DNA of 64,000 nt, taken from the NCBI GenBank assembly GCA_013141495.1, contig JABFQV010000008.1, positions 62,001-126,000 on the forward strand. The letters are read 5' to 3'. Of this stretch, positions 18,678 to 41,458 are shown piece by piece. The notes under the pieces were generated by a model. The model was not told where the DNA came from, made no database searches, and worked only from the letters and a program-made list of their open reading frames with translations. Source of the DNA: Methylotenera sp. (GTDB taxonomy: Bacteria; Pseudomonadota; Gammaproteobacteria; Burkholderiales; Methylophilaceae). Numbering within the stretch: position 1 is the first letter of the stretch; every line of letters begins with the position of its first letter. The translations under genes were made by a program, and so were the position numbers.

Positions 18678-19012
18678 AGTCTCCTACTGGAAGTTTATAC
18701 AAAAAAACTTCATGGTGGGAGATGTTAAAGCAGAGGTTTAGTCGTTAAAAATAGCATTTTAATCAGTGGTGTAAGGCAGCTCAAAATTATGTGTATGAAA
18801 TGTCGATGCATCAAAATACACCATTGAACATCTCACTAAATTAGCGATTGGACCATCAAAAATCATCAAGCTGGCTTACCATGCGTAGCCAATATCCTAG
18901 TGTAAATCGGGAGTTTCTCCCTAAATTAAAATCTGCCTTTGGCGTGTAATGGAGCCACTTAATAAATTCAGCGTCGTAATAAAAATACGGCTAAAAAATT
19001 ACAGGGGCTACT
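18678..19012. promoter_or_regulatory. Intergenic region between the two mxaRSACKL sets, with a dyad pair
   Basis: This 335-base gap has no gene. An imperfect hairpin follows mxaD (18681-18721; CTCC and GAAGTTT arms paired with AAACTTC and GGAG). It may stop or slow transcription but lacks a T-run. Near the second mxaR lies GGAGTTTCTCC (18910-18920), 93 bases before the ATG. Exactly 23 bases upstream is a half-matching AGCCAATATCC (18887-18897). This is the likely promoter region of the second set. Confidence 0.5.
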
Positions 19013-20029
19013 ATGTCTGGAAACACGCTAGAAGATTGGCGCAATCGCGCTTTAACCTATGAAAAAGAATTAAATAGCACGGTCATAGGTTTAGCACCTG
19101 CGATACGGTCTTTAGTGATTGCGATTTTTGCACGTGGGCATGTGTTGCTTGAAGGTAATGTAGGCGTAGGTAAAACTACGTTGTTACGCGCGGCGGCGCG
19201 CGGCTTGGGCGGTGGGTATCAGCGCATTGAAGGTACGATTGATTTAATGCCGCAAGATTTGATTTATCACACTTATATTGACCAAGACGGCAAGCCGCGT
19301 GTGGATCCTGGGCCGATTTTAGCGCAAGGCGAGAATCTATCTGTATTCTTTTTTAATGAGATTAACCGCGCGCGCCCGCAAGTGCATTCTTTGTTATTGC
19401 GAGTGATGGCAGAGCGCAGTATTACTGCGTTTAACCGTGAGTATTACTTTCCACATTTACTGGTATTTGCTGATCGTAATGCGGTGGAGAAAGAAGAAAC
19501 ATTCGAGTTGCCGGGCGCAGCACGTGACCGCTTTTTAATGGAGTTGGAAATTAATCCCGCTAATGATAGCGCTGTGCATAAAGCGTTAACATTTAATTCT
19601 CGCTTTCATGATACAGATAAGTTAATAGAGCAGATCACCGCTGGTAATGTTGAATTTGACGCACTCACACCTTTTGCGCCAGTAATACAAAATTCTGTGA
19701 CCGCAGGCGAGGCCGTGCAAGACTTTGTTGAGCATTTACGCAAAGCCACGCATCGACCGCAAGATTACGGTATTCAATTGCCAGATGTAGATATGGATGA
19801 ATTGATGATTGCAGGGATGGGGCCACGCGGTACGAGCATGCTAGTACGTGCCGCCAAGGTGTCTGCTTGGCTAGATGGTCGTTTAGAACTTGCACCGCAA
19901 GATGTGGCAGCGGTGTTTCATCAAGTGGTGGCGCATCGGGTGTTTTTTACGCCGATTTATGAGTTGCAACGTAGTTGGTTGGCTAAGGCTTACACGCAAG
20001 CGATATTGCATAGTGTACCTACGCCGTAA
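19013..20029 (+). CDS. mxaR: MxaR-like MoxR ATPase (second copy)
   Basis: This 338-residue AAA+ ATPase has Walker A GNVGVGKTT, Walker B FFFNEINRARPQ and the FELPGAARDRF arginine-finger region. It is highly similar to the first MxaR across the full length. It leads a second R-S-A-C-K-L set with no MDH structural genes of its own. The set lies on the same strand as the mxa cluster and upstream of the TonB/xox region. The ribosome site is CAGGGGC. The client enzyme could be MxaF, XoxF or another metalloenzyme. Confidence 0.9.
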   Translation: MSGNTLEDWRNRALTYEKELNSTVIGLAPAIRSLVIAIFARGHVLLEGNVGVGKTTLLRAAARGLGGGYQRIEGTIDLMPQDLIYHTYIDQDGKPRVDPGPILAQGENLSVFFFNEINRARPQVHSLLLRVMAERSITAFNREYYFPHLLVFADRNAVEKEETFELPGAARDRFLMELEINPANDSAVHKALTFNSRFHDTDKLIEQITAGNVEFDALTPFAPVIQNSVTAGEAVQDFVEHLRKATHRPQDYGIQLPDVDMDELMIAGMGPRGTSMLVRAAKVSAWLDGRLELAPQDVAAVFHQVVAHRVFFTPIYELQRSWLAKAYTQAILHSVPTP

Positions 20030-20030
20030 T

Positions 20031-20144
20031 ATGACAATCATCGGCGGATTTGTAGGCGTAAATTTACTTGCGCTTGCAATGATGATACTTGTGAATCAAT
20101 TCACGTCTATACAAACCTTAAAACCATGGCACAACAACCTTTAA
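20031..20144 (+). CDS. Possible 37-residue membrane peptide between mxaR and mxaS (second set)
   Basis: An ATG one base after the mxaR stop opens a 37-codon frame, MTIIGGFVGVNLLALAMMIL then VNQFTSIQTLKPWHNNL. It has one credible membrane helix and overlaps the start of mxaS by 19 bases. There is no clear Shine-Dalgarno sequence, but coupling to the mxaR stop is possible. The first set has no such spacer: its mxaS directly follows mxaR. It could be a real small protein or chance in a 96-base gap. Confidence 0.3.
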   Translation: MTIIGGFVGVNLLALAMMILVNQFTSIQTLKPWHNNL

Positions 20145-20980
20145 TTCATTATCACGTCCGCTGGCGGCCATCAGGGCATCAACCTGGCGCTAGTCGTGGC
20201 ATTGTTGCAGGTATTGGAGATCAACTCCGCTCTGTGGTGCTGTTGCGAGACCATCCAGACCCGCGACGATTAGATTTGCGCGCCAGTTTGCGTGACCCAT
20301 TTGAAAACGTTTGGGTACGTGACTTCAATCTAAACGCTGCATTGAAGGTGATTGTGTTGGTGGACACCTCGGCTTCTATGGGCTATGTCGGTAAAGTAAA
20401 TCGACTGCATGTCGCGCAAGAAATCGCTTCGCAACTGGCTTTATCAGCTTATCGTTCAGGTGATGCTTTTGGCTTGTTTGCAGCGGGTGAGAATATCAAT
20501 AAACAATGTATGTTGCCTCCCAAAGCTAACCGTGGTGCGTGGTTGTGGGTCAATCATCATTTTGCAAAAATTAAACCGCAAGGTCAGCATGCAGATGGTT
20601 TATTTTCGGTGGTGCCTTACTTGCCACAAAAGCGTTGTTTGGTTTTTGTCATCTCAGATTTTCGCTGGTCAGCTGGCAAATTAAAATTGTTATTAAAAAA
20701 ACTCAGCCACCACGACGTGGTACCTGTGATGTTGCAAGACCCTGCAGAAATAGACGAACTGCCTAAAAGTGGCATTGCTATTTTGCGTGATGTTGAAACA
20801 GGTGCCGGGCAATTTGTGTGGATGCGAGCTGGCTTGCAAAAACAGATGGAAAACCTGCGCGCACAACATATAAGCAATATTGAAGAGGCTTGCCGCAAGT
20901 ATGGCGGTAAACCGTTTGTGGTCAAGGGGGAGTTTAGTGCGGCACTTTTGACTAAATATTTTATGGAGCGTAGCACGTAA
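20126..20980 (+). CDS. mxaS: MxaS-like DUF58 protein (second copy)
   Basis: This 284-residue DUF58/MxaS-family protein has RWRPSGHQPG, HPDPRRLDLRA, the metal-site-like VDTSASM and FVISDFRWS, each matching the first copy in order. The start ATG is inside the candidate small frame at 20031. The stop overlaps the next ATG (TAATG). It is probably the soluble partner between the MoxR ATPase and the membrane VWA proteins. Confidence 0.86.
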   Translation: MAQQPLIHYHVRWRPSGHQPGASRGIVAGIGDQLRSVVLLRDHPDPRRLDLRASLRDPFENVWVRDFNLNAALKVIVLVDTSASMGYVGKVNRLHVAQEIASQLALSAYRSGDAFGLFAAGENINKQCMLPPKANRGAWLWVNHHFAKIKPQGQHADGLFSVVPYLPQKRCLVFVISDFRWSAGKLKLLLKKLSHHDVVPVMLQDPAEIDELPKSGIAILRDVETGAGQFVWMRAGLQKQMENLRAQHISNIEEACRKYGGKPFVVKGEFSAALLTKYFMERST

Positions 20981-22056
20981 TGAAAATAAGAGTTGTAATG
21001 CTACTGAGTTTGTCGCTTTTTTTGCAGACGGTATTCGCTGAGGTCAACGTTGCAACGCCTGCTGTAACAGGTCCAACAGTCAATATCACCATGCGCGATA
21101 ATGGTTATACGCTTGGCGATATGATTGCCATGCATGCAGAGTTTAATTTAGCCAAAGGCTTGGTGTTTGACCCAAATAGCGTGCCGCTAAAAGGCCCTGT
21201 GAATAATTGGTTAGATTTACGCAATGTGTCAATGGCTGAGGCTGAAAACGCCGATGGCGGGCGTAAAATCAGCATTGATTTTACATGGCAGATATTTGGC
21301 ACCGTAGAACATGCACAAACACTCAAAATCCCTGCGATACAGCTGCAAACAATTCCGCCTATAGAGAACACTAAAGGCAAGTTTGAAAAAGACGACGTTG
21401 CGAAAGACGACGTTGCAAAAGCCGCAAGCAATAAACCGCTAGCCAAACCTTTAGTGATTAGCATTCCAGCGCAGCGTTTTAATTTGTCGCCTGTGCTACC
21501 ACCCACGATTACAGAGAATACGCATCGCCCACACGCACCGCCTTTACGTTTCAATGAACGCACCCCGCTTACGTTCGCCATCATCTGCCTGAGCTTAAGC
21601 TTGCTATGCGGTGTGATTTGGCTTTGGTTACAAGATAAAATTTCATGGTTACCGCGTAATCCTGGCCCAATAACACAATTGGCACGCCAATTAAGGCAGC
21701 AAAAGTTACGCCAGCAAAACATAGGGCAAGTATTTACAGCAGAAAACTTACGCACTATTCATGCAGGATTAGCTAGCGCGGCTGGGCAGAGTTTATACCC
21801 GAATACTTTGGCTAATCTGTTTGAAACGAGCCCATATTTAGTAGCAGAAAAACCTGCGATTACACAGTTTTTTAATGCGTCATGGCAAATGTTTTATGCG
21901 AAAAATGCTAACGCAAGCGCCAGCAATATATCTGTTATAGACACGTTACGTTGGATTAACCGTGTTGCGATGGCTGAGCGTTTATCACGCAGGCAAGCCA
22001 ATAAGAGTGTGCGTCAAAAGCCCGCTACAACCTTAAATCGTGCAGTAGAAGTTTAA
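20980..22056 (+). CDS. mxaA: MxaA-like protein (second copy)
   Basis: This 358-residue protein has a signal peptide (MKIRVVMLLSLSLFLQTVFA), a periplasmic domain, one membrane segment near residue 205 (TFAIICLSLSLLCGVIWLWL) and a cytoplasmic tail. Topology and gene order match MxaA. It contains a duplicated DDVAK pentapeptide (15-bp repeat at 21391-21420). The start overlaps the mxaS stop by one base, and mxaC follows almost directly. Confidence 0.8.
   Translation: MKIRVVMLLSLSLFLQTVFAEVNVATPAVTGPTVNITMRDNGYTLGDMIAMHAEFNLAKGLVFDPNSVPLKGPVNNWLDLRNVSMAEAENADGGRKISIDFTWQIFGTVEHAQTLKIPAIQLQTIPPIENTKGKFEKDDVAKDDVAKAASNKPLAKPLVISIPAQRFNLSPVLPPTITENTHRPHAPPLRFNERTPLTFAIICLSLSLLCGVIWLWLQDKISWLPRNPGPITQLARQLRQQKLRQQNIGQVFTAENLRTIHAGLASAAGQSLYPNTLANLFETSPYLVAEKPAITQFFNASWQMFYAKNANASASNISVIDTLRWINRVAMAERLSRRQANKSVRQKPATTLNRAVEV
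21391..21420 (+). repeat. 15-bp direct repeat inside the second mxaA
   Basis: Two adjacent 15-base units, 21391-21405 and 21406-21420, differ at one base and encode DDVAK twice. The unit length equals that of the unrelated repeat in the first mxaC. Confidence 0.8.
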
Positions 22057-22059
22057 GTG

Positions 22060-23082
22060 ATGAACGCGCTACATTTTTTTAAACCAGAATTATTATGGTT
22101 GCTACCCTTAGCCTTATTACCGTTGATTTCTTATGGCGTAAAGCAGTTTAGCTTTCCGGGGCTAGAAGATTGGCCTAAGGATTTTTTATCTGATTACTTA
22201 CGTTGGGGCGTGCGTGCATTGGCAATGCTTACCCTCATTTGCTTAATTATTGCCGCCGCCGCACCATTTACTGAAGGCGGCACGGTGACGCGAGTCGGCG
22301 AAGGTGCTGAGATTGTCGTCGTATTAGATCGTAGCGGCAGTATGTCTGAAAATTTACAAAACAATGATCAAAGTGTCAATGCTAAGCCTATCAGCAAAAT
22401 TGAGGCCTCGCGTAAAGTATTACTCAAGTTTATGGATCAACGTCCCGCTGATACATTTGGCGTTGTGGCATTTAATGCGGCACCTATACGCGTCGCACCA
22501 CTTTCTGCAGATAGGGAGCTAGCCAAGGCGGCATTGCAAAGCGCGGAAACTAACAGCTCTGGCTTTACCGCGCTAAACCGTGCATTGGCGATGGGGTTGG
22601 ATTATTTTAATGGCAGACCATTTACCGCGACACGTTTAATCATGTTGGTATCAGATGGTGACGCGGTGATTGAGGGTGAAGATAGAGTCATCCTTAAACA
22701 GTTATTTAAGCAATATCGCGCAAAATTGATATGGGTGTACGTGCATGCAGGGGTAGAGAAAAATATTTTAAATAGCGTGATTGCGGGTGATAACGAAATT
22801 GTCACCAATGCTGAAATGGAAAAAATAGAAATGGATCAAAACGTTGCCATGAACCGTCTTTTTGAAGCGCTTGAGATTCCATATCAAGCGTTTGAAGTAA
22901 ACAGTGAGGAGGGTTTGCAGCATGCCGTGGCAGAAATAGAACGTGCAACCAATAAACCCACCCGCTATGAATACCGTTTACCTCGTCAAGATTATGCTGT
23001 TTATTTTTACCTGATGGCTATGTTGCTGTTGGGCGCCTTGTTTTGGTTAAAGCAGATTGAAATTAAAGCTTGGAAAGCGTAG
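22060..23082 (+). CDS. mxaC: MxaC-like VWA membrane protein (second copy)
   Basis: The ATG at 22060 is chosen over an immediately upstream GTG. The protein has about 340 residues with two N-terminal membrane segments, a VWA domain with the metal-site motif DRSGSM (VVVLDRSGSM) and a C-terminal membrane segment (YFYLMAMLLLGALFWL). It lacks the GVENL repeat of the first copy. The gene sits directly after mxaA. MIDAS residues are intact, so the VWA domain should bind a divalent ion. Confidence 0.9.
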   Translation: MNALHFFKPELLWLLPLALLPLISYGVKQFSFPGLEDWPKDFLSDYLRWGVRALAMLTLICLIIAAAAPFTEGGTVTRVGEGAEIVVVLDRSGSMSENLQNNDQSVNAKPISKIEASRKVLLKFMDQRPADTFGVVAFNAAPIRVAPLSADRELAKAALQSAETNSSGFTALNRALAMGLDYFNGRPFTATRLIMLVSDGDAVIEGEDRVILKQLFKQYRAKLIWVYVHAGVEKNILNSVIAGDNEIVTNAEMEKIEMDQNVAMNRLFEALEIPYQAFEVNSEEGLQHAVAEIERATNKPTRYEYRLPRQDYAVYFYLMAMLLLGALFWLKQIEIKAWKA

Positions 23083-23168
23083 TTGTGTAGGTGTAAATAT
23101 CTTGGCCGTTATTCTCGCTTACGCGGAAATGGCGAGTGATGAAGTATGAAAATAAGCAGGAAAAAATC

Positions 23169-23771
23169 ATGAAAATACGACATAAAATACGTCAGAAATT
23201 ACTCGACAACCTACCACGCACTTTGTTGGTGCTGGCGTCACTGCTATTGTTAGCTTCTGGATACCAATTTAGCTTATGGTGGAAGGCGCACCAACTTAAC
23301 ATTGCGTATGACAACAAAACACTATTAAAACAGTCACTGAACAATAGTGAATATCTACACGCGTACAGCATCGGATATTTGCTTGCTAGTCAAAACAAGC
23401 CCGTAGAGGCTTCAAAAGCTTTCAACATTGCAGAAGTTACGCAGGACTCTGAGTTACGCGCCCGAGCCAAGTATGCGATTGGTAATGTGCACTTTGAGGC
23501 GGCTATTGCTTCATCAAATATAGAAAAAGGCGGCTCGCATCGACGCGCAGTAGAGCGTGTGCTGTTGGCAAGAGAGGCGTATAAAGGCGCATTGCGAATT
23601 AAGCCAGACATGTACGACGCGCGCTATAACTTAGAACTGATTGATCGACTTAGCCCGGAAAAGCGTAGTGAAGGCTATGAAAACACACCAGATGGCACGA
23701 TTGGTTTGCAGCCTTATCAGCAAAATGGCACAGCGCTAATGAAGGATAATACGCGTCGGGGCTTGCCATGA
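23169..23771 (+). CDS. mxaK: MxaK-like protein (second copy)
   Basis: The ATG at 23169 (MKIRHKIRQK) is favoured by CAGGAA at the right spacing. An upstream ATG at 23136 would add 11 residues. The protein has about 200 residues with an N-terminal membrane anchor (LLVLASLLLLASGYQF) and a TPR-like domain (YSIGYLLASQNKPVEASKAF; RIKPDMYDARYNLEL). The layout matches the first MxaK. A 120-base gap with no convincing gene separates it from mxaL. Confidence 0.82.
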   Translation: MKIRHKIRQKLLDNLPRTLLVLASLLLLASGYQFSLWWKAHQLNIAYDNKTLLKQSLNNSEYLHAYSIGYLLASQNKPVEASKAFNIAEVTQDSELRARAKYAIGNVHFEAAIASSNIEKGGSHRRAVERVLLAREAYKGALRIKPDMYDARYNLELIDRLSPEKRSEGYENTPDGTIGLQPYQQNGTALMKDNTRRGLP

Positions 23772-23891
23772 TAAAGTGCTTGCACGGGTATTTATTCATT
23801 CACAAATCCAGAAAGTCAGTCATTGACGTAGTAAGCAGTCCTATCAGTTTCATCACGTATTTAATCCGTTTACATTTATTGAGCTATTATC

Positions 23892-24929
23892 ATGCGCCAT
23901 AGCCTTAAACACTGGTGGGGTCATTTCTGCGTGCATTTGCGTCATGCCGTTAAAAACGGTGCAATATTTTACATATTGGCGGGGTTGGCTTTGTTGCCGG
24001 TTTGGTTTGAGCCGCAGATGCGATTAAAAAGCGTGGTGCAAGATACGCTTTTTGTCATTGATATTAGTGAGAGCATGAATGTACGCGATGTGAATTACCC
24101 CAAACCACAAACCGACCGTCTCACGCTGGCTAAGTTAGCCGTGCGCGAAGGCATGGCTAGTCTGCCTTGTGGCTCACGTGTTGCTGTCGGGCTATTTGCT
24201 GGTGATGAGTCTGTCGTGTTGTTTGAGCCATTAGAAGTTTGCCGACATTTTCCTGCCATCGAGCAAGTTGTTTCAGGGCTGGATCGACGCATGCGCTGGA
24301 TAGGGGACTCATGGGTGACAAACGTGCTGACGGCCTCTATTATTGAAGCAGAAAAGCGCCGGCTTAATTTAGTGCTGATTACTGATGGCGATGAAATGCC
24401 GCAACGGTCTGCGCCCATCGTGACGGAGCTAGCCAAATTAAGAGGCAAAATTAAAGGCCTGTTATTAGGTGTGGGCGGTGATGCCCTGCAACCGATACCT
24501 AAGCTCAACCAAAAAGATGAAATTATTGGTTATTGGACGCGCGAAGATGCAGTGCTAGAAGGCAATCACCCTAATTTATTGCCCACCGTGCGCGCCTTGG
24601 CCAAAGGCGAGCAAGCGCCAGAGGGGATGCTAGATGAAGTCACCGAGCATGTATCCTCATTTAATAAGGTCTTTATGCAAGCGCTTTCACAAGCCTCAGG
24701 TTTTGAGTTAGTGCGCATTAATACACCTGTTGATGCGGTTAATGCACTTAAAAATAGTGATTATCAAAAACAAGCGTTAGCTGAGCGCGACGCTCGCTGG
24801 ATATTTAGCTTGGTTGCGTCGGTGCTGGTTTTTCTCGGTTGGTTTTGGCAGACTATTAAATCGACTGTGGCTAGCAGGCGCTGGTTTAAATTCAAACGTT
24901 CAGCAAGTGTTGTAATCAATGCTTCTTAA
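23892..24929 (+). CDS. mxaL: MxaL-like VWA protein (second copy)
   Basis: This 345-residue protein has an N-terminal membrane segment (IFYILAGLALLPVW), a VWA-like domain with DISESM, the shared LPCGSRVAVGLF motif and VGGDA, and a C-terminal membrane segment (WIFSLVASVLVFLGWFW). It is the last gene of the second set. The next gene begins 134 bases on, behind a dyad pair, so the set ends here. No mxaD follows. Confidence 0.87.
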   Translation: MRHSLKHWWGHFCVHLRHAVKNGAIFYILAGLALLPVWFEPQMRLKSVVQDTLFVIDISESMNVRDVNYPKPQTDRLTLAKLAVREGMASLPCGSRVAVGLFAGDESVVLFEPLEVCRHFPAIEQVVSGLDRRMRWIGDSWVTNVLTASIIEAEKRRLNLVLITDGDEMPQRSAPIVTELAKLRGKIKGLLLGVGGDALQPIPKLNQKDEIIGYWTREDAVLEGNHPNLLPTVRALAKGEQAPEGMLDEVTEHVSSFNKVFMQALSQASGFELVRINTPVDAVNALKNSDYQKQALAERDARWIFSLVASVLVFLGWFWQTIKSTVASRRWFKFKRSASVVINAS

Positions 24930-24964: not shown

Positions 24965-24999
24965 GGACTTTATCCCATACTAAATTAGGAATTTATCCC
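24965..24999 (+). promoter_or_regulatory. Paired GGA-N5-TCC dyads (perfect pair)
   Basis: GGACTTTATCC (24965-24975) and GGAATTTATCC (24988-24998) are both full matches to GGA-N5-TCC. Their starts are 23 bases apart and each is followed by C. They lie 65 bases before the beta-solenoid gene. The arrangement (two dyads two helical turns apart) suggests binding of two dimers of a regulator on one face of the DNA. Confidence 0.6.
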
Positions 25000-25063
25000 G
25001 CCAGTTTACGAAATTGCTAAGCCTATAATGATGCGTTTTTAAAATCAAATTTAGGCTTAATAA

Positions 25064-27010
25064 ATGTCCAAAACTATTTTTTCAATCCAACTGGCTGCAA
25101 GTATGCTGGTGGCTGCATCAATAGATACGGCAAATGCGGCATGTGTTTTAGAAACTAGTAAACCAGTAGTCAATTGTGCGGGTAACATTCAAACTGGTTA
25201 TCTCGCTCGCAAAAATCAGCTAATCATTGATACGAAAAATCTAAGTGAAACTAACATCAATGCGCCTGATGGCAGTAACTTACGCAACAAATTTACTGTC
25301 AATGTGAGTCGTGGTGCAAAAGTTTCAGCTAACCCGCGCGTGCAGATTTGGACCGCTAATGATCAAACTGGTGCAATTGCTACGCCGATTTACAGCGTAT
25401 CTACACTGGTTAATAGCAATAGCACTATTAACAACCGTGGCACGATTCAAAATAACAGCGTAAGCAAGGTTAATAATGTTGCAGTGCTTCTTAGTGGTGA
25501 TCAGGCTAAGTTGGTGAATCTTGCGGGTGGTGTAGTTTCTGCTGAAATTAGTGCTAACAACCTAATAAAACCTATTTCAACTTCTACCGTAAGCACCGAC
25601 ATTGTTTTTGCCGATGGCACTCCGCCGATGAAAGCGGGCGCGCCACATGGTGTGTTGAATGGGCCTGTCACGACCTACGGGTTTGATGCGGCGGCAATAG
25701 GCGTGGATACGGAGTTGCACGGTCATAATGTAGTTGAAAACCATGGTGTGATTAGTGCGCGCCACGCTGGCATTGGCAAAGTATGGGCAGTGGCTGCTGC
25801 AGGTAAAGCTGATACGTTTGTATTAGAAAACTACGGCACTATATCGGCAGAACGCACTCAACCCCTGATATTAACCACTAACACTGCTGCCAGTTTAAAA
25901 GGCACTGTAAAAGGCGCAGGAAAATTAAAAGTAGCTAGTACCAGTTATGGTGAAGCGCGCAATATTGCTTATGCGGCAGGCTTTTTTACTGAGGAAGAGC
26001 AAATTGAATCCACTGTCCATAATCACAAAGGCGGCACAATTTCAGGTAGTGGAGATTTGGTAGCAGCCTTATACCTGCGCTCAAACCTCTTAAACATCAC
26101 TAATGAAGGCACGATTAGCTACAACAAAGGCTCTGGCAGTTTTGGTGGCGGCGTGGCGATTGTGAGCTACGAAGCACCATTTAATGAAGTGGAAGACGGC
26201 TTTTTACAAATCAGCATCGGCAAAACTTCATTTAAAAATACCGGAAATATCATCGGCGATATTCGCATGGTTGATGTGAATGGTTTGGCTGAAATGGCTT
26301 CAAAAGTCGCTGGTTACGACCAGTCATTTATGAAGGTAGCTGGCAGGCGCGACAGTGTGATTGACAACAGTGGCACCATGCAAAACCTAGTGCTAGGTTC
26401 TGGCGACAATAAGCTTACTAACAGCGGCAAGATTGATGGCAATATCAATGTAAACCAAACATTCATCTACAAATATGCCGCAACTAATGCCACTAACAAT
26501 TACCCTGTAGGTACGTTTGCCGCAGGTCAATCTGCTACGGTTTGCCTTGCAGCAGCCGTGCCACTTAAAGGCTGCTTACCTTCAAAATGGTTCTTGGCAG
26601 GAGATGAAGAACATAGCTACTTAACTGAAGAAGATTTTTTGGTGGCCAACCCAGATAAACGCTTTGTCTTAGAAAACAGTGGCACGATTACTGGCGATGT
26701 GATGATAGCAACGGTGGCAGGTAGCCATATTACGATTAGCCCAGTCATTTCAGCTGAGTCGTCTGAAAATAACAGCTCCATTCAAGGAACACTCAAGATA
26801 GCAGATGCTAAAGGCATAAGTTCAGCAGATAGCACAGCAGTGATTAAGCCGATTGTGAGTAGCTCAGCATTAGTGAAATCTGGGCAAAGTTATACCGTTG
26901 CCAAGCAGTTTTTTGGTGAAGTTTTGCCAAAAGTAGAAAGCAGTGGAAATGTCAGTTGGATAGTTAAGAAAGTCAACAATGCGCTGGTGATTGAAGCAGT
27001 GGTTAAGTAA
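25064..27010 (+). CDS. Secreted beta-solenoid (adhesin-like) protein without a beta-barrel
   Basis: This 648-residue protein has a signal peptide ending near DTANA. The rest holds irregular repeats with an N-x-G-T-I core (NRGTIQN, ENYGTISA, NEGTISY, NSGTMQN, ENSGTITG), as in autotransporter or haemagglutinin passengers that form beta-helices. It ends at VIEAVVK with no C-terminal beta-barrel, so it is not a classical autotransporter and may be periplasmic or exported otherwise. It is 37 bases upstream of a TonB receptor, probably in one operon. I do not recognise a specific family. Substrate binding at the surface is an inference. Confidence 0.7.
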   Translation: MSKTIFSIQLAASMLVAASIDTANAACVLETSKPVVNCAGNIQTGYLARKNQLIIDTKNLSETNINAPDGSNLRNKFTVNVSRGAKVSANPRVQIWTANDQTGAIATPIYSVSTLVNSNSTINNRGTIQNNSVSKVNNVAVLLSGDQAKLVNLAGGVVSAEISANNLIKPISTSTVSTDIVFADGTPPMKAGAPHGVLNGPVTTYGFDAAAIGVDTELHGHNVVENHGVISARHAGIGKVWAVAAAGKADTFVLENYGTISAERTQPLILTTNTAASLKGTVKGAGKLKVASTSYGEARNIAYAAGFFTEEEQIESTVHNHKGGTISGSGDLVAALYLRSNLLNITNEGTISYNKGSGSFGGGVAIVSYEAPFNEVEDGFLQISIGKTSFKNTGNIIGDIRMVDVNGLAEMASKVAGYDQSFMKVAGRRDSVIDNSGTMQNLVLGSGDNKLTNSGKIDGNINVNQTFIYKYAATNATNNYPVGTFAAGQSATVCLAAAVPLKGCLPSKWFLAGDEEHSYLTEEDFLVANPDKRFVLENSGTITGDVMIATVAGSHITISPVISAESSENNSSIQGTLKIADAKGISSADSTAVIKPIVSSSALVKSGQSYTVAKQFFGEVLPKVESSGNVSWIVKKVNNALVIEAVVK

Positions 27011-29407: not shown

Positions 29408-29419
29408 GGAGTTTTTCCC
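29408..29419 (+). promoter_or_regulatory. GGA-N5-TCC dyad before the second TonB receptor
   Basis: GGAGTTTTTCC (29408-29418, followed by C) lies 98 bases before the receptor start. A partner 23 bases on (TGAACTTGTGG) matches only weakly. Position and context match the paired sites elsewhere. Confidence 0.4.
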
Positions 29420-29505
29420 ATCCTAAAAAGTGAACTTGTGGCATGGGTCTGAATTTAAATTAGCTTGATAATCTTTACTTTATCACTATAAAAGTAAGGA
29501 TCGTC

Positions 29506-32702: not shown

Positions 32703-33701
32703 TTAAACCTTTAATTGAATGTTAATTTTAGTGCCGGTATTAGCGAGTGTTGCGTCAGATCGGCTGCTTATTTTTATGCTGCCAGCAAGCGCTTCAACGC
32801 GTTCTGCCATGCCAAGCAAGCCGTAACCAGTATGTTGAGCGGCCTCAAAGCCAACGCCGTCGTCAGTAATTGTAATCGTCAAATACTGTGCATTGCTCTC
32901 AATGTTAATTAGCACCGCGTGTGCTTGCGCATGCTTGGCAATGTTAGTGAGTGCTTCTTGTACGATTCTAAAGATGGCAATATTGGTCGTTTCGTTGTAG
33001 TTATCAATATCACCGTGAATTTGTAACTGATAGTTTACTTGGCTACGGGTCTCAGTTTGTATCGTCACCGCGTTTATCTGTCGCCATGTATCAATAAAGT
33101 TCTCTAATGCGGCCGATAATCCAAGGTCGTCTAAAGCCACTGGGCGTAGTGCGCGAATTAAGTTGTGGGTGGCGTGATAGGCATGGTTTGCGCTGGATGT
33201 AATGCTTTTGGCGGTAAGGCGTGCCTCTGCAGAGCTATTGGTATCGACCAGCAAACTTGCCGCTTGCGCTTTAATTGCGCTGAGATACTGCCCCAAATCA
33301 TCATGTAAATCTCGCGCAATGCGTTTGCGCTCGTCTTCTTGTACTTCTAGTATGCGTTGTAATAGTGCGTGGTTTTTTTGAATCAGCAGTTTAGACGCAT
33401 CAATAAGACGTTTTGCAAACCACAACAATGCAAGCAAGCTTGCCAACAAAGCGGGTAGCAATTCATCTATATCTAAGTTGTTCTCGTACTGCCTCGCCCA
33501 AACATAGTAATGCTCAGAAAAATTAAAGTAGCTCGACAAAGCGTAGGTGCAAACAAAAGCAGCGGGAACGCAGGCTAAATCAAGCGCAATATCACGCCAA
33601 TAGAGGTTTTGAGTCTTTGCATGCTTGATTTGATGAGGCGGGCTAGTTTGAGTAGGCATTGCGACATTATTGTAAAGGTGATTGTGCGAGCTTGTCGCCA
33701 T
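32703..33701 (-). CDS. HPK7-type sensor histidine kinase adjacent to xoxF
   Basis: This 332-residue kinase has two membrane segments (about residues 33-53 and 78-95), HisKA_3 with phospho-acceptor His in IARDLHDDLGQ, and HATPase motifs DDGVGF and GLLGMAERV. It is a paralogue of the kinase next to mxaF and is co-transcribed with the response regulator. The loop between membrane segments is short and acidic (ENNLDIDELLP) and could contact a ligand. The promoter region carries a dyad pair reading toward this gene. Confidence 0.87.
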   Translation of the reverse strand: MATSSHNHLYNNVAMPTQTSPPHQIKHAKTQNLYWRDIALDLACVPAAFVCTYALSSYFNFSEHYYVWARQYENNLDIDELLPALLASLLALLWFAKRLIDASKLLIQKNHALLQRILEVQEDERKRIARDLHDDLGQYLSAIKAQAASLLVDTNSSAEARLTAKSITSSANHAYHATHNLIRALRPVALDDLGLSAALENFIDTWRQINAVTIQTETRSQVNYQLQIHGDIDNYNETTNIAIFRIVQEALTNIAKHAQAHAVLINIESNAQYLTITITDDGVGFEAAQHTGYGLLGMAERVEALAGSIKISSRSDATLANTGTKINIQLKV

Positions 33702-33718: not shown

Positions 33719-33753
33719 GGGGATATTCACGGTTTATATTAGGAATAATTCCC
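33719..33753 (-). promoter_or_regulatory. GGA-N5-TCC dyad before the kinase gene
   Basis: On the minus strand GGAATTATTCC (33752-33742) is a full match. The sequence 23 bases on, TGAATATCCCC (33729-33719), is a 4-of-6 match. The pair lies 18-51 bases before the kinase start. The distal part of the same 427-base gap holds the xoxF pair at 33983-34016 and a 5-of-6 match at 33803 (GGAATATCTCT). Confidence 0.45.
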
Positions 33754-33982: not shown

Positions 33983-34017
33983 GGAAAATATCCCAATCTA
34001 TTGAAGGACTAATTCTC
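33983..34017 (+). promoter_or_regulatory. Paired GGA-N5-TCC dyads before xoxF
   Basis: GGAAAATATCC (33983-33993) is a full match. GGACTAATTCT (34006-34016), exactly 23 bases on, matches five of six positions. The pair lies 113-146 bases upstream of xoxF, inside the 427-base divergent region between the kinase gene and xoxF. No gene is seen in that region. Confidence 0.55.
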
Positions 34018-34128
34018 AATCGCCAAAATTAAAGCGAGCCTATAGTTCAACCCATGTTGCGATTGTAATAATTTGTAACATATTGCAGCAGTTTAATTAG
34101 GGGTTGAATTTTTAATCACGGAGGAAGT

Positions 34129-36030
34129 ATGAAGAAAACTTGGACACTAAAAGCCATGTTTACTGCCTTGAGTGCCGTAGCCTTGGTAGGCATGGTAGGT
34201 CAGGCGTCAGCAAACGAAGAAATTATCAAGCGTAGTAAAGACCACAATATGTGGGCAGCACCAGGCCAAAACTTGGCAATGCATCGTCATAGTCAATTAA
34301 AAGACATCAATACAAAAAACATTAAAAACTTACAAATGATCTGGTCACAATCTTCAGGCACATTGCGTGGTCATGAAGGTCAACCGGTAGTGGTTGAGCA
34401 CAACGGTAAGCCAATGATGTACATGGTTTCAGGTTGGCCTAACATTGTTCAGGCGTTAGATTTATCTAATCCTGACCAGCCAAAACAAATCTGGAACTAC
34501 ACAAAAAAATCTGATCGTGATGAATCTGCTGTGCCGCGCGCATGTTGCGACACCATCAACCGTGGTTTGAACTATGCTGATGGTAAAGTGGTTTTCCACA
34601 CCTTAGATGGCTTCTTGATTGCCTTGGATGCAACAACGGGTAAAGAAATTTGGGTGACTAAACATGCTTACCCGGAAAAAGGTGAAACACATTCAGGCCC
34701 AGCAATGGTTGCCGAAGGTTTAGTGTTAGCTGGTTTCGGTGGTGATGAATTCGCTGCACGTGGACGTACTGTTGCTTACGATTTAAAAACAGGTAAAGAA
34801 GTGTGGAAGTGTCATAGCACAGGTTCAGATAAAGATCTTTGCTTAACACCAGATACTAACAAAGCTAACCCGCACTATGGTTTATATGGTCAAAACACTG
34901 GTTTAACTTACCCAGGTGATGAGTGGAAAATTGGCGGCGGCGCACCATGGGCATGGTTTACTTATGACCCTAAATTACGCATTATGTACGCAGGTACAGG
35001 TAACCCAGGCCACTGGTCACCAGCTTACCGTTGCGGTGAAACCGGTGCAAACTTGACTCACGAAAAATGTAACACTGTTGATCCAAAAACCAATGTTGGT
35101 AAATACGATAACAAATGGTCTATGACTATTATGGCGCGTAAAATCGACACGGGCGAAATGGTTTGGGCATACCAAAAAACACCATTTGACCAATGGGATT
35201 ATGATGGTGTGAACGAAAACATCTTGGTTGATGACTTAGTCGTTGATGGTAAAAAACACGATGCGCTTGTGAACTTTGACCGTAACGGTTTTGCTTATGT
35301 GTTAGATCGTAAAGATGGTACTTTGTTACGTGCTAACAAATTTGTGACTGTAAACTGGGCTGAAAAAGTTGATCTAAAAACTGGCCGTCCTGTAAAAGTG
35401 AAAGAGCATTCACCGTTTGCACGTGATGTCAACACGCAAGCTTGTCCATCTGCAATGGGTGGTAAAGATCAGCAACCAGCAGCGGTTGATCCTAAAGAGC
35501 CAAACTTGTTCTACGTGCCAACTAATAACTGGTGTATGGAAGATGAGCCACAAGAACGTACACACACACAACAAGGTACTGTTTATGTGTTTGCTAACGT
35601 GTACATGTACCCTGAAAAACCAGGTGTGACTGGTAAGTTGAAGAAATTTGACGTAGTGACTGGTAAAACTATCTGGGAAGTGTCTGATCCATATCCAAAC
35701 TGGAGTGGTGTGTTAGTTACAGATGGTGGCTTGGCATTCTACGGTTCATTGGGTGGTGATTTCCGCGCAGTTGATCGTAATTCAGGCAAAGTGGTATGGA
35801 GCCGTAAATTAGCTTCAGGCATCATTGGTAACCCAATCACTTACAAAATCAAAGGCAAACAATACGTGTCAGTATGGACAGGTATTGGCGGCTGGATTGG
35901 TTTGCCTGTAACAGCAGGTCTTGATATGGAAGATAAATACGGCGCAATTGGTGCTACTGCAATGGCCAAAGCGACTGGTTTAGATAAGGTTCCTCAAGGC
36001 GGTACATTGTTTACATTCCGTATAGACTAA
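34129..36030 (+). CDS. xoxF: XoxF, lanthanide-dependent methanol dehydrogenase (PQQ)
   Basis: This 633-residue quinoprotein has a signal peptide of about 28 residues, vicinal disulfide C139-C140, Glu207, Asn292 and the catalytic region FDQWDYDGVNE with Asp357. The extra Asp359 two residues later is the lanthanide-coordinating hallmark of XoxF, absent in the MxaF of this window. It is longer than usual owing to an insert around residues 298-325 with two Cys (C302, C314). The clade is not assignable by eye. A GGAGGAAG ribosome site precedes the ATG. It is divergent from a two-component pair. Confidence 0.97.
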   Translation: MKKTWTLKAMFTALSAVALVGMVGQASANEEIIKRSKDHNMWAAPGQNLAMHRHSQLKDINTKNIKNLQMIWSQSSGTLRGHEGQPVVVEHNGKPMMYMVSGWPNIVQALDLSNPDQPKQIWNYTKKSDRDESAVPRACCDTINRGLNYADGKVVFHTLDGFLIALDATTGKEIWVTKHAYPEKGETHSGPAMVAEGLVLAGFGGDEFAARGRTVAYDLKTGKEVWKCHSTGSDKDLCLTPDTNKANPHYGLYGQNTGLTYPGDEWKIGGGAPWAWFTYDPKLRIMYAGTGNPGHWSPAYRCGETGANLTHEKCNTVDPKTNVGKYDNKWSMTIMARKIDTGEMVWAYQKTPFDQWDYDGVNENILVDDLVVDGKKHDALVNFDRNGFAYVLDRKDGTLLRANKFVTVNWAEKVDLKTGRPVKVKEHSPFARDVNTQACPSAMGGKDQQPAAVDPKEPNLFYVPTNNWCMEDEPQERTHTQQGTVYVFANVYMYPEKPGVTGKLKKFDVVTGKTIWEVSDPYPNWSGVLVTDGGLAFYGSLGGDFRAVDRNSGKVVWSRKLASGIIGNPITYKIKGKQYVSVWTGIGGWIGLPVTAGLDMEDKYGAIGATAMAKATGLDKVPQGGTLFTFRID

Positions 36031-36060
36031 TTTGTTAGTGCTAGAAATGTAAAAAAATTA

Positions 36061-36093: not shown

Positions 36094-36286
36094 TATGCGT
36101 AAGGTTTTTATGTAGGGGTAACGTTTTGTCATCAAGCATTTTCCCTGCATAAAGTCTTTAAATTTAACTGAACTTTCAAAAAGTTAAATGCTATTAAAGT
36201 GCTATTAAAATTCAATAATTTCTGCTGATTATTCGATAAATAATCAATTTTTAATCAATAATGTTTTATATAAAATGGGGTGTTAG

Positions 36287-37924
36287 ATGTCCAATAAATC
36301 AGTTTTTAAGCTCTCTTTACTCGCCGTTTCTCTTGCGGCATTAGCTTTACCGGTCATGGCGGATGATGTAACCCCAAGTTCAATAAAAAAAATGGGCTCG
36401 CTGCGTATCTGTGCTGATCCTGGCAATATGCCAGTTACATCAGATAAGGGTGATGGTTTTTCAAACAAAATTGCCACGATTATTGCCGAGGGCATGGGAA
36501 CACACACCAGCTATTTTTATCGCCCGTATTTAGAGCGTGGCTTAACGCGACAAACCTTTGATAACAACGAATGCGACATTCTGATGGATATGACTTCCGA
36601 TGATGATCGCATGATGACTACCATTCCAGTTTATCGCAGTACTTTTGTATTGGCGCACAGAAACGATAAAGGGATCACCATTAAATCGCTAGATGATCCT
36701 AAATTGTTGAATGATTACAAAGTTGGCGTATTTCAGCATTCGGCTATCCGCACCGTATTGCAAGAACATGGCATTAACCGCAATAACACCGTGGTACGTA
36801 CCATTGCGCATGATGCTGACCTTAGACCGGAGCGTCAACCGCACATGGATGTGCAATTGATGATTGATGGCAAGCTTGATGTGGCTGCCATTTGGGGACC
36901 GATGGCTGGATGGTACAAAACTATGAAAAATGCACCGATTGAAATCGTGCCAGTGAATATGATGGATGATAGAACGCCCATGGAATTTTCATTAGCGATT
37001 GGGATGCGAAAAAACGCCAAAGACCTGAAAGCGGCTATTGAAGCGGTGATGCTTAAAGAAAAAGACAAAATCAAAAAAGTATTAAATGAATACGGTGTGC
37101 CGTTAGTGAAGTGTGAAGATTGTGTGGTTTCTGGCGATTTACCTTCACATGGCGCATATAAACCACTGGTTAGAAAAGCCTACGTTCCATTGCAGTCAGA
37201 TGTCGCCGCATTGCCAGCCATGGTGGATGATGCACTCAAGCAAGGCTCAACCCTAGAGTGGGAATTACACAACGCCACTATTGCACGCGACAACACACGC
37301 ATCGAGTATTTGCTTAAACGTGGGGCCAAAATCAATGCCAAAGATACAGAAGGGCAAACGCCGTTAATGGTGGCGGCAAAAAGTGGCGATTTAAGCGTGC
37401 TTAATGGCTTGCTTGAATATAAAGCGAACCCTAATGCGCAAGATAACGACGGCTGGACGGCTGCCATGTACGCAGTGCGTTCAAATGAGCCTAAAATTTT
37501 CCGCTTATTGGGCAAACACAAGGCAGATTTTAATCTTACCAATAAAGATGGTGTAACTGCGCTGGCAATGGCTGTGAACGATAACAAAGCCAATGCTGCC
37601 GTGGCGATGCTAGATAACAATGCTAACCCAGACTTTGCGATGGGTGCCGGTAAATATAACGCCTTAATGCTGGCCGTAACCAAAGGCAACCAAACCTTGG
37701 CACAAACTTTATTGCAATATAAAGCCAACCCCAATGCTAAAAATGCAGGGGGTGTAACGCCACTGATGATTGCTGCGCATAAAGATCAAGACATGATTGT
37801 GAGCTTGCTGTTAAAAGCGGGTGCAAAAGTGGAAATGAAAGATGACGAAGGTAAAACCGCTTTAGTTATCGCTAAAGAAAATGACGCCCAAAAAGCACTT
37901 ATACAGTTGCAATCGGCAAAATAG
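36287..37924 (+). CDS. xoxJ: XoxJ-like solute-binding protein fused to ankyrin repeats
   Basis: This 545-residue periplasmic protein has a signal peptide (cleavage near PVMADD). Residues 24-275 are a XoxJ/MxaJ-type solute-binding domain (LRICADPGNMPVTSDKGDGF; DILMDMTSD; VAAIWGPMAGWY). A linker with a CEDC pair follows at about 275-278. Residues 320-545 form six to seven ankyrin repeats (GQTPLMVAAKSGD, GWTAAMYAVRSNE, GVTPLMIAAHKDQ). Typical MxaJ/XoxJ ends before the linker, as in the 294-residue protein at 10553. The gene follows xoxF. The repeats probably add a protein-docking surface. The reading frame is continuous, so this is a genuine fusion. Confidence 0.9.
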   Translation: MSNKSVFKLSLLAVSLAALALPVMADDVTPSSIKKMGSLRICADPGNMPVTSDKGDGFSNKIATIIAEGMGTHTSYFYRPYLERGLTRQTFDNNECDILMDMTSDDDRMMTTIPVYRSTFVLAHRNDKGITIKSLDDPKLLNDYKVGVFQHSAIRTVLQEHGINRNNTVVRTIAHDADLRPERQPHMDVQLMIDGKLDVAAIWGPMAGWYKTMKNAPIEIVPVNMMDDRTPMEFSLAIGMRKNAKDLKAAIEAVMLKEKDKIKKVLNEYGVPLVKCEDCVVSGDLPSHGAYKPLVRKAYVPLQSDVAALPAMVDDALKQGSTLEWELHNATIARDNTRIEYLLKRGAKINAKDTEGQTPLMVAAKSGDLSVLNGLLEYKANPNAQDNDGWTAAMYAVRSNEPKIFRLLGKHKADFNLTNKDGVTALAMAVNDNKANAAVAMLDNNANPDFAMGAGKYNALMLAVTKGNQTLAQTLLQYKANPNAKNAGGVTPLMIAAHKDQDMIVSLLLKAGAKVEMKDDEGKTALVIAKENDAQKALIQLQSAK

Positions 37925-37976
37925 AGCGGAATGATTTGTAGGTTGTCGCAGCAACCAACAGGCTAAAAAATACCAT

Positions 37977-38014
37977 AAGGACTAAATCCTATGTTTAATT
38001 AGGATTTAGTCCTT
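37977..38014. promoter_or_regulatory. Perfect 15-bp inverted repeat made of two GGA-N5-TCC dyads
   Basis: AAGGACTAAATCCTA (37977-37991) and its complement (38000-38014) flank an 8-base centre. Read as dyads, GGACTAAATCC (37979-37989) and GGATTTAGTCC (38002-38012) are both full matches, 23 bases apart. It lies 92-129 bases before the xoxG-like start. The structure could also act as a terminator for the XoxJ-ankyrin gene, though no T-run follows. Confidence 0.6.
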
Positions 38015-38105
38015 CATGCCAAAACACCTAGCCGTCGTTAAATGGTGTGTTAGTCGTTGTTAATTTATAGATATATGTTTGGTGTATTTAATGAAAGGTT
38101 TGAAA

Positions 38106-38756
38106 ATGAAATTTCGACATGCCGGCCTTGTTGCCGTATTGAGTATTGCTTTTATCTCGGCTTGCATAGCCGGCACCAATAAATTCGCTGAGAGTGCTAA
38201 TGTCACTGCGGCTACTGCACCTGCTCCAATTGTTGTGGCTGAGGCTGAGACGACGCTAGTGTCAGAACCCGCAGCAACGGTAGGCGCAGATGGCTTTGCA
38301 CTACCTGTACAAAAGAAAAAATCTACAGCGCCAGAAATTAAGCCTTTAGCTTCAGATAAATCACCACATGACGTGGCAACAGATGCCGCTAAAGGGTCGT
38401 TAAAAAATCCGTACTCATATACAACGATGAATCCAGATTTAGTTGAAGCAGGCAAGAAAAAATACATGAGCGTAAGCTGTAACGGTTGCCACGGTGGCAA
38501 TGGCGGTGGCGGTATGTGCCCACCACTTTCAAACGAAACCTGGGTATATGGTGCAGATGACGATACTTTATTTCGCTTAGTGGCTTTAGGTAGCGATGAG
38601 TTAATGAAGCAAGGCTACACACGCAAAGGCCGTGAAAATGTAGTAGGCCCAATGCCTGCGCATGGCAAGATTGTAAAAACTGAAGATGATTTGTGGCGAA
38701 TTATTTACTTTATTCGCGGTAACTTCCGTGGCGATGCTAAAAACATTAAATGGTAA
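38106..38756 (+). CDS. xoxG: XoxG-like c-type cytochrome
   Basis: The start at 38106 (MKFRHAGLV) is preferred over an ATG at 38079, as it leaves a normal leader. A Cys in FISAC suggests a lipoprotein anchor. The protein has about 216 residues with a low-complexity linker (residues 20-90), one haem motif CNGCH (about 125-129) and a Met near VVGPMPAHG as probable axial ligand. It resembles the cytochromes that accept electrons from XoxF and is distinct from MxaG. It leads a run of five genes. The linker could let it reach the membrane enzymes. Confidence 0.8.
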   Translation: MKFRHAGLVAVLSIAFISACIAGTNKFAESANVTAATAPAPIVVAEAETTLVSEPAATVGADGFALPVQKKKSTAPEIKPLASDKSPHDVATDAAKGSLKNPYSYTTMNPDLVEAGKKKYMSVSCNGCHGGNGGGGMCPPLSNETWVYGADDDTLFRLVALGSDELMKQGYTRKGRENVVGPMPAHGKIVKTEDDLWRIIYFIRGNFRGDAKNIKW

Positions 38757-38766
38757 ATGGATTTTA

Positions 38767-39750: not shown

Positions 39751-39787
39751 TGGCAATTTGAATTTAATACTTTTAGGAGAGAACTAA

Positions 39788-40324: not shown

Positions 40325-40359
40325 GCTTAATTTGATGATTTTTAAATTTGAGGAAAACC

Positions 40360-40824
40360 ATGAAAGCATACACCATAATCATCGCCGCACTAGCTTTGGT
40401 ATCTACTAGTCAAACCTTTGCGGATGTTGACACAGCGCAGCAATTAGTTAAAAGATATGCCGCAATCGCTAAAATGCAAGACTCGTCATATACAGAGCCC
40501 TCTGCTGGCGAAGGTAAAATATTTTTTAATCGTAAAGTAATTCAATTTAAGGGTGACCGTAAAAGTCCAGGAAAGCCTCTATCCTGCGCATCCTGCCACA
40601 CTGAAAACCCTGCAGATAATGGCAAACATATTGTTACTGGAAAGAAAATTAAACCACTGTCACCAACAGTGAATCCCAAACGCTTTGATGATATTGAGCA
40701 TGTTGAAAAACAATTTGCCAAACACTGCAATGAGATTATCGGTAGTGATTGCACTCCTCAAGAGAAAGCCAGTTACATTGCCTTTTTAATTGAAGAAAAA
40801 ACACCAAGCTCAGGTAAGAAATAA
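40360..40824 (+). CDS. SHP-like (DUF1924) c-type haem protein
   Basis: The ATG at 40360 is preferred over an upstream TTG because GAGGA lies 6 bases before it. The protein has about 154 residues: a signal peptide, one haem motif CASCH (about residues 76-80), the VNPKRFDDIEHVEKQFAKHC segment and GSDCTPQEK. This fits the DUF1924 / sphaeroides haem protein family, whose haem can bind small ligands. Its role in the xox cluster is unclear; it might be an extra electron carrier or a redox sensor. The stop overlaps the next frame start. Confidence 0.82.
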   Translation: MKAYTIIIAALALVSTSQTFADVDTAQQLVKRYAAIAKMQDSSYTEPSAGEGKIFFNRKVIQFKGDRKSPGKPLSCASCHTENPADNGKHIVTGKKIKPLSPTVNPKRFDDIEHVEKQFAKHCNEIIGSDCTPQEKASYIAFLIEEKTPSSGKK

Positions 40825-40841
40825 TGGACTTAAGAGAATAT

Positions 40842-41390
40842 ATGAAGCGAATATTAAGTATTTTAGCCGTTGTATGTTTAATGCCGCTAAGCGTATCTGC
40901 TCACGGGCCAAGCGGGCAAAAGGTGGAGAAAAAATTTGACGTAAATGCCGATCCTGCCAAAGTGTGGGCTTTAGTGAAAGATTTTGGCGCGATTGGCAAG
41001 TGGCATCCAGATGTGACCAATGTAAAGCTTGAGGATCGCAAAGATGAAGAAGGTAAAACCTTGCCACACCGTTTGGTGACACTTAAAAATGGCACGACAT
41101 TTTTAGAAAAACTGCGTGAAGTCAATGACGCTGATATGAAGATGGACTACAAAATGGTGGATGGTAAAGACAGTACCATCGCTGTGAGTAACTACCGCAC
41201 TGTTTTACAGGTGAAATCTGGCCCGATCGCCGGTCAATCTACAGTCACTTTAACCGCTCGTTTTTACAATAAAGCCAATACCATGGAAGCGCCTGCAGGC
41301 GCTGATAATCCAGCAGCGAACAAGGCAATTAACGAGCTTTACGATGCAGCAGTTGTTGGTTTGATCAAAACGTTAGAAGCTGGGAACTAA
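40842..41390 (+). CDS. MxaD-like SRPBCC protein (xox cluster, second)
   Basis: The start at 40842 (MKRILSILAVV) is chosen because it gives a standard signal peptide ending VSAHGP and has AAGAGA upstream. An ATG at 40824 would add six residues. The protein has about 182 residues and matches the SRPBCC protein at 39788 (AKVWALVKDFGAIGKWHPD; TARFYNKAN). The mature N-terminus HGPSGQK resembles MxaD at 18165 (HGPTPQK). Two MxaD-like genes in one cluster suggest specialisation. It is the last gene of the run. Confidence 0.86.
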   Translation: MKRILSILAVVCLMPLSVSAHGPSGQKVEKKFDVNADPAKVWALVKDFGAIGKWHPDVTNVKLEDRKDEEGKTLPHRLVTLKNGTTFLEKLREVNDADMKMDYKMVDGKDSTIAVSNYRTVLQVKSGPIAGQSTVTLTARFYNKANTMEAPAGADNPAANKAINELYDAAVVGLIKTLEAGN

Positions 41391-41422
41391 AATGTACTGG
41401 ATTTGAGTGTGTGCTGAATTTC

Positions 41423-41458
41423 GGGAATTTATCCCATGCTATTTCAGGATTTCTTAAG
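41423..41458 (+). promoter_or_regulatory. GGA-N5-TCC dyad, degenerate pair, before the last propeller gene
   Basis: GGAATTTATCC (41424-41434) is a full match. GGATTTCTTAA (41447-41457), 23 bases on, keeps only the left half. It lies just after the second SRPBCC gene and 213 bases before the propeller start, upstream of a terminator-like hairpin. Confidence 0.45.

Follow-up and report, generated by a model that had tools for sequence, protein, structure and literature searches.

How bacteria sense lanthanides, and how they exchange a calcium-dependent dehydrogenase for a lanthanide-dependent one, is still an open question, and a 2024 review dealing with the PedH/PedE switch and the MxaY/MxaB-type system describes the exact mechanism, in its accessible text, as remaining unknown (PMC11845868). 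The question arises again at a 64-kb stretch of a Methylotenera genome (positions 62001-126000 of contig C9 in the 2.49-Mb genome G000; hereafter the window), in which a short dyad, GGA-N5-TCC, recurs between genes, often as two copies 23 base pairs (bp) apart, around the gene for a lanthanide-type methanol dehydrogenase, xoxF. What does this element do, and which protein reads it? We consider it probable that a lanthanide/methanol-dehydrogenase regulon of the Methylophilaceae has this element as its operator, laid out for activation, and that the leading role most likely falls to the response regulator of a two-component pair, here called C1, where the window begins on its left side.

The dyad is found more often in the window than base composition would provide for. 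There are 16 full copies, against 5.03 +/- 2.29 in dinucleotide shuffles, and 16 or more were reached in none of 100 shuffles; the preliminary description of this DNA, which allowed about 16 single sites per 64 kb to chance, had set that figure too high. Its nine full sites are all present at their coordinates and all intergenic. Its list was incomplete, however, as the window holds seven more. Four of these, at 16903, 17569, 30877 and 31522, are intragenic, the one at 57627 overlaps an open reading frame (ORF) of 432 amino acids, and those at 1260 and 10360 are intergenic. Of these last two, the site at 1260 proved to be a member of the regulon. The site at 10360-10370 is part of a GC-rich palindrome 3' of mxaF that looks terminator-like by eye.

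The regularity of the arrangement becomes apparent from related genomes. In all, 27 neighbourhoods were retrieved and their genes and sites mapped, and sites were counted in 16 neighbourhoods of the xoxF cluster, which represent 13 genomes including that of the window. Here GGA-N5-TCC occurs 80 times in 37.4 kb of intergenic DNA against 12 times in 256.8 kb of coding sequence, and the intergenic copies with gaps of 3, 4, 6 and 7 number one, three, one and two. Around the 80 intergenic sites, a partner dyad with at least four of the six fixed bases is found 58 times at a distance of 23 bp (24 downstream and 34 upstream), and every other spacing between 11 and 60 bp yields at most 11 partners, this maximum being at the adjacent 22 bp. 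The 22-bp spacing is used by one promoter of genome G149 and by the window promoter at 1238-1270. The consensus can be written as RGGA, five mostly A/T bases and TCCY, with TGA often replacing GGA in the inner dyad. Since 23 bp corresponds to about 2.2 helical turns, the earlier proposal that both dyads are bound on one DNA face holds only approximately.

The dyads also keep a fixed distance from the promoter. With a match to TATAAT in at least four of six positions taken as a -10-like hexamer, such a hexamer follows the distal dyad by 47/48 bp in 42 of 53 cases (other offset pairs: mean 5.6, maximum 12) and follows single dyads by 24/25 bp in 37 of 75 (mean 10.9, maximum 23). This distance puts the predicted dyad centres at about -42 for the inner and about -65 for the outer copy, a common position for activators, and the layout is predicted to be that of an activator abutting the -35. 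Both marks of a tandem-dimer operator of the NarL/LuxR kind, a fixed repeat of roughly two turns and a proximal site abutting a sigma-70-like -35, appear to be present. The spacing, the -10 distance and the conservation at orthologous promoters described below support the earlier suggestion of a regulon under a dimeric regulator with two bound copies per promoter.

This layout is kept by each of the six promoters on the forward strand of the cluster, and the six pairs that had been described before are as they were given. The moxR/mxa-like operon at 19013-24929 is preceded by the pair 18887/18910 (18887-18920; 4/6 and 6/6 of the fixed bases) with a -10 TGTAAT at 18945-18950, a layout found identically in L122 and L125. 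Two full dyads, 24965/24988 (24965-24998), stand 23 bp apart before TATAAT at 25024-25029 and the gene 25064-27010, which encodes 648 amino acids without a Pfam family and is followed by a TonB receptor gene at 27048. The promoter of the TonB-dependent receptor gene 29506-31704 (29408-29441, -10 GATAAT at 29467-29472) has a full dyad whose partner 23 bp away matches at only 3/6 (TGAACTTGTGG); the TGAA with which this partner starts is found again in relatives. At xoxF the pair 33983/34006 (33983-34016; 6/6 and 5/6) precedes TATAGT at 34041-34046, and at the xoxG-like gene 38079 two full dyads, 37979/38002 (37979-38012), precede TTAAAT at 38038-38043. The pair 41424/41447 (41424-41457; 6/6 and 4/6), with TAAGAT at 41482-41487, would drive a predicted small RNA (sRNA). 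On the reverse strand, the kinase/regulator promoter (33719-33752, for 33701-32062) joins the full dyad 33742-33752 to a 4/6 partner at 33719, and the promoter of a second predicted sRNA (1238-1270) joins the full dyad 1260-1270 to a 5/6 partner at 1238-1248, with TAAAAT at 1208-1213.

Within its own genome the pair is a local feature. G000 has two exact 23-bp pairs and one with a single mismatch, all three in this region, and pairs with up to three mismatches show no enrichment over the genome as a whole (266, compared with 345 for the reversed control). The confinement of exact and one-mismatch pairs to the region, without a genome-wide excess, points to a local regulon. A profile made from 36 dyad pairs (R1) gives seven matches at E<0.1 in this genome, at five places of which four are training sites, and all of them lie within the cluster. 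Elsewhere in the genome, a single full dyad is found just 3' of another regulator/kinase pair (L149:10323, G000:C9:444322).

Across 150 genomes of the family, the exact pair is found in 21 (24 matches) and its reversed control in 4. The close relatives that carry names are mostly Methylotenera metagenome-assembled genomes (MAGs). Outside the genome of the window, all eight exact pairs of the same genus lie in the intergenic promoter that separates the xoxJ-ankyrin gene from that of the xoxG-like cytochrome, so that the conservation at orthologous promoters of related Methylophilaceae, on which the preliminary description had staked its proposal, is indeed observed. The other genera contribute 14 exact matches. 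Five adjoin homologues of window genes, namely regulator/kinase pairs (L019, L036), a TonB receptor with a kinase (L021), a beta-propeller gene (L018) and moxR (L027), while L023 precedes a lanpepsy-type gene and L025 and L026 adjoin a C1 pair. Near L017 and L020 no homologue is found, L022 and L024 are ambiguous, and one pair each in G005 and G020 was left aside.

Three paralogous kinase/regulator pairs come into question as readers of the element. The C1 response regulator, composed of Response_reg and GerE domains, extends into the window with its 3' end only (positions 1-50, forward strand; match G000:C9:61415-62044, ORF to 62050). Its kinase gene lies just to the left, and 51 bp separate the end of a full dyad from the kinase start (L147:13939). 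This kinase contains PF16448, LapD_MoxY_N (4.5e-7, above the cut-off), a domain found likewise in all eight further C1 kinases (three above the cut-off, five just below) and in neither of two C3 kinases. C1 has in common with MxaY/MxaB-type systems both a MoxY-domain kinase and a LuxR-type response regulator; the MoxY-type sensor was inspected, by eye only, for a conserved patch that might bind metal, and none is claimed. C3 consists of a NarL/LuxR-type response regulator at 32062-32697 and a HisKA_3 histidine kinase without a MoxY domain at 32703-33701, both on the reverse strand, and C4, the third pair, lies at 6642-8264.

The preliminary description had named the C3 regulator as the first candidate, a choice that does not hold up well. 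Its close orthologues are present in only some genomes, and G112, G069, G051 and G107 keep sites at xoxF and xoxG although the regulator of their cluster is only 40-41% identical to it; these genomes carry instead a C1-type pair, with a kinase of about 450 and a regulator of about 213 amino acids. An intergenic dyad is found at 37 of 43 C1-centred loci (a density of 2.63 per kb between genes and of 0.19 per kb within them), at 11 of 12 C3 loci and at 9 of 25 loci of other paralogues, seven of these nine being of the C4 type and some adjoining C1, where all such loci include close relatives and partly overlap. An occurrence of the element beyond the Methylophilaceae was rejected on the basis of neighbourhoods of relatives of the C3 regulator (L072-L098 and L110, mostly from other families, with L082 from Methylotenera), in which there are 11 intergenic full sites, none with a partner better than 4/6. 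The recognition helices of C1, C3 and C4 have in common the motif KT[VI]AN, which a GacA-like paralogue lacks, so that all three may read the element, and C3 may act as a second input on the same sites.

The association of the element with C1 can be followed through the family. C1 is found in 88 of the 150 genomes (threshold 1e-66), and at E<=0.05 profile R1 matches 64 of the 150, namely 48 of the 88 with C1 and 16 of the 62 without (p 0.0007). The position of a match near C1 is a stronger test than co-occurrence at the level of genomes. The held-out matches number 65 in all; for the 49 in C1 genomes, the distance to C1 is at most 20 kb in 26 cases and at most 3 kb in 19. These figures were compiled by hand and leave out opposite-strand duplicates, matches inside L114-L140, G102:C30:20095, which falls a little outside one of those neighbourhoods, and the training site G020:C1:710012; one match, G071:C28:109150, lies in a retrieved neighbourhood. 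From these comparisons, C1 is most likely the main regulator.

A mechanism can be proposed on this basis. A dimer of a NarL/LuxR-type response regulator would bind GGA-N5-TCC and a second dimer would bind 22-23 bp away, the inner one abutting the -35 at about -42 and the outer one lying at about -65, and both would recruit or contact RNA polymerase. The targets would be xoxF, xoxG, a TonB-dependent receptor presumed to be for lanthanides, the second mxa-type assembly operon, the regulator genes themselves and the sRNAs. C3 (32062) and C4 (6642) would probably recognize these sites or ones like them, thereby joining several sensors on one operator. The element, the spacing, the constant distance from a -10-like hexamer, the conservation at promoters of orthologues, the link to C1 and the sequence conservation of the sRNA-like stretches are observed; the binding, the activation in preference to repression, the lanthanide signal and the expression and role of the sRNAs we infer. 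A wider proposal, to which we give only tentative credence, is that up to three paralogous two-component systems, whose recognition helices are nearly identical and which share one operator code, together with a translational arm of regulator-controlled sRNAs with an exposed anti-Shine-Dalgarno loop, set the switch between calcium and lanthanide enzymes. With a defined operator, this poorly understood switch can be tested at the level of DNA, since the operator provides a handle on the regulator that binds, on the prediction of targets in uncharacterised genomes and on candidate sRNAs, and candidate lanthanide-responsive promoter parts would follow.

A link to lanthanides is also suggested by lanpepsy. 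In Methylobacillus flagellatus, lanthanum reportedly induces Xox proteins, a TonB receptor and lanpepsy. Lanpepsy itself is a lanthanide-binding protein, according to the accessible text of its description (PMC12482762). In genus g10, an exact dyad stands about 70-115 bp 5' of the matched start of all six lanpepsy-type genes, which encode two PepSY domains. In g20, the element is found behind the lanpepsy gene and is directed at an sRNA instead. The lanpepsy homologue in the genome of the window (G000:C9:459211-459714, 60% identical) has no element upstream.

Several promoters with the element point into stretches that lack ORFs and end in strong terminators, and both 1238-1270 and 41424-41457 in the window are of this type. 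The first predicted sRNA (copy 1, 41488-41546, forward strand, drawn from six bases before the predicted start) consists of a hairpin at the 5' end, its loop reading CUCCAA, and an intrinsic terminator after it, and copy 2 (1129-1206, reverse strand) is found by R2, a covariance model confined to the RNA, with E 9.0e-9. The 5' hairpin with its CUCCAA loop and the terminator are common to 12 aligned sequences, and 11 of 13 predicted base pairs show, in at least one sequence, a double change that preserves the pair. In nine of ten held-out R2 matches (E up to 4.5e-5) a dyad stands at -64 to -66, full in six cases and 5/6 in three; the tenth, in G059, has no dyad and lacks the CUCC loop as well, whereas G146 lacks the loop yet has dyads. 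Four weaker matches that were examined have no dyad at -64 to -66. RNAs with a CUCC segment are also found in g10, g16, g18 and g20 and are candidate relatives whose homology is unproven.

The loop resembles an anti-Shine-Dalgarno sequence, so the predicted sRNAs could act on translation, although no consistent target emerged when duplex energies were compared at the ribosome-binding sites of genes nearby. A scan of ten loci with Rfam found nothing above the gathering score except two tRNAs. Below that score there are full-length but weak resemblances to three known families: RF02278, the Betaproteobacteria toxic sRNA (copy 1 16.4 bits, copy 2 18.2, gathering 50), and, on copy 2, RF02871, Burkholderia ncS54 (23.3 bits, E 0.0021, gathering 43), and RF00378, Qrr (25.9 bits, E 0.0057, gathering 50). 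Such matches, though far under gathering, make a distant kinship with a known sRNA possible.

The sRNA-like stretches could alternatively be leader terminators or attenuators of the genes downstream, and copy 1 does precede a beta-propeller gene at 41631 in the same direction, just as in L114-L116 the same class of promoter runs into a beta-propeller gene with no terminator detected. However, copy 2 occupies the gap after the Sel1-repeat gene 235-1059, to which it is antisense, and reads toward the 3' end of that gene, several homologues in g10, g18 and g20 lie between convergent genes or without a nearby ORF on the same strand, and the hairpin loop and terminator are retained while the genomic context changes, all of which makes leaders a somewhat unlikely explanation. 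A different assignment would have the C3 regulator alone bind the sites, with the MoxY-linked C1 pair as a bystander. Its pair is divergent from xoxF, the kinase promoter carries the element, the recognition helix has KTIAN.QT and the dyad is there at 11 of the 12 loci centred on it; we nevertheless hold this to be decidedly improbable, as the sites persist without a close C3 orthologue in the four genomes named above and adjoin a C1 pair, with no C3 pair, in the retrieved neighbourhoods of g8, g18 and g20.

The sign of regulation could also be the reverse, the element being the operator of a repressor. The active MoxY-type kinase of Methylomicrobium buryatense lowers xoxF, as far as the accessible text goes (PMC5018670), and PedR2 of Pseudomonas putida is described in the accessible part of its paper as both activator and repressor (PMC6115532). 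The lanpepsy dyads of g10 are, moreover, mostly off the usual -10 distance. Against this stand the predicted centres at about -42 and -65, which are typical of activators, and the example of BvgA, which activates with the same geometry in the accessible text (PMC7250471), so that repression appears unlikely. Finally, the 34-bp inverted repeats might not be operators at all but RNA hairpins, terminators or a mobile repeat. The stretch 37979-38012 could form an 11-bp stem, and 12 of the 36 profile pairs, mainly at xoxG, are complementary at no fewer than 10 of 11 positions; the other 24 are not self-complementary and still keep both dyads, on which ground the terminator or hairpin explanation was rejected. 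The distance from the -10 is constant, and a genome-wide repeat was rejected because the exact pair occurs only twice in its own genome. We regard this last possibility as extremely remote.

Several observations weigh against an activating operator read mainly by C1. Without the 20 genomes that supplied training pairs, R1 matches 29 of 69 genomes with C1 against 15 of 61 without, a difference of only p 0.04, and the 15-16 matching genomes that lack C1 exceed the roughly three expected at E<=0.05. Most neighbourhoods come from related genomes, so that the site counts are not independent. At 33719-33752, on the reverse strand, no -10 is clearly discernible at the expected spacing, and the xoxF promoter of L130 (g19) lacks a full dyad and has a profile match only (E 0.0078); the 12 aligned xoxF promoters had been chosen for carrying the site. 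Outside g10, the element precedes only 1 of 22 lanpepsy homologues (28 of 29 places in this comparison, a second copy in G062 being left out), and within g10 a good -10 at the usual 23-26 bp is missing in five of six, with a 4/6 match in G043 only. As a general member of the regulon lanpepsy was rejected, as the association holds in g10 alone. Lastly, it is when lanthanide is absent that the MoxY-type kinase of M. buryatense is active, with mxaF raised and xoxF lowered as a result (PMC5018670), so that an activator at xoxF would need either a reversed sign or another signal.

Among known NarL-family regulators, DosR/DevR recognizes a palindrome of the GGGAC...GTCCC type with the spacing GGA-N6-TCC. 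This spacing is not the one seen here, since a gap of 6 accounts for one intergenic site and a gap of 5 for 80. A close parallel to the proposed operator is BvgA, a NarL-family response regulator whose head-to-head dimers are centred at intervals of 22 bp, with the inner dimer directly next to the -35 (PMC7250471); in the window the half-site, kinase and genes differ, and the two dyads are mostly 23 bp apart. MxaY and MxaB of M. buryatense are a kinase and a response regulator that control mxa and xoxF, where MxaB is an orphan regulator and the accessible text presents no operator (PMC5018670), whereas the present case offers a linked pair and a proposed operator in another family. PedS2/PedR2 of P. 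putida provides LuxR-type control of lanthanide- and calcium-dependent dehydrogenases, and the terms 'motif' and 'binding site' are absent from the main text of that paper (PMC6115532). The ACTU motif of CrbR in Pseudomonas fluorescens is an imperfect palindrome, required when a LuxR-type response regulator activates, that was likewise derived from promoter comparison; its sequence differs and it serves acetate genes, again by the accessible text (PMC5715377). A literature search with most subscription papers outside its range found no earlier description of the motif.

The gene xoxF and the xoxJ- and xoxG-like genes lie on the forward strand. XoxF (34129-36030) has the motif WDYDG, where MxaF has WDFAG, and the second Asp of WDYDG is a mark of the lanthanide enzymes. 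It is followed by a xoxJ-like periplasmic protein with C-terminal ankyrin repeats (36287-37924), homologues of similar length being present in the clusters of relatives, and by a XoxG/MoxG-like cytochrome c (38079-38756). The operon at 19013-24929 is a second moxR/DUF58/VWA/TPR operon that resembles mxaRSACKL and has an operator as at xoxF. The gene mxaF stands with its mxa cluster at 8504-10303. The gap between it and C4 contains 5/6 dyads only, the full operator being seen at xoxF and not at mxaF; these are TGAAAGTTTCC at 8305 on the forward and at 8383 on the reverse strand (8305-8393), possibly weaker related sites. The same gap has inverted TGAAAGTTTCCC / GGGAAACTTTCA boxes, which may be a modified binding site for the third regulator.

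Two observations come from further afield. L070, on a contig filed as a Desulfobaccales MAG, has a Methylotenera-like xoxF cluster (regulator 88% and xoxF 96% identical) and is probably mis-binned. In G017, the element is found 5' of a gene for an RTX calcium-binding-repeat protein (L168:1504-3034; 478 amino acids in the retrieved piece), which is possibly an unlinked member of the regulon.

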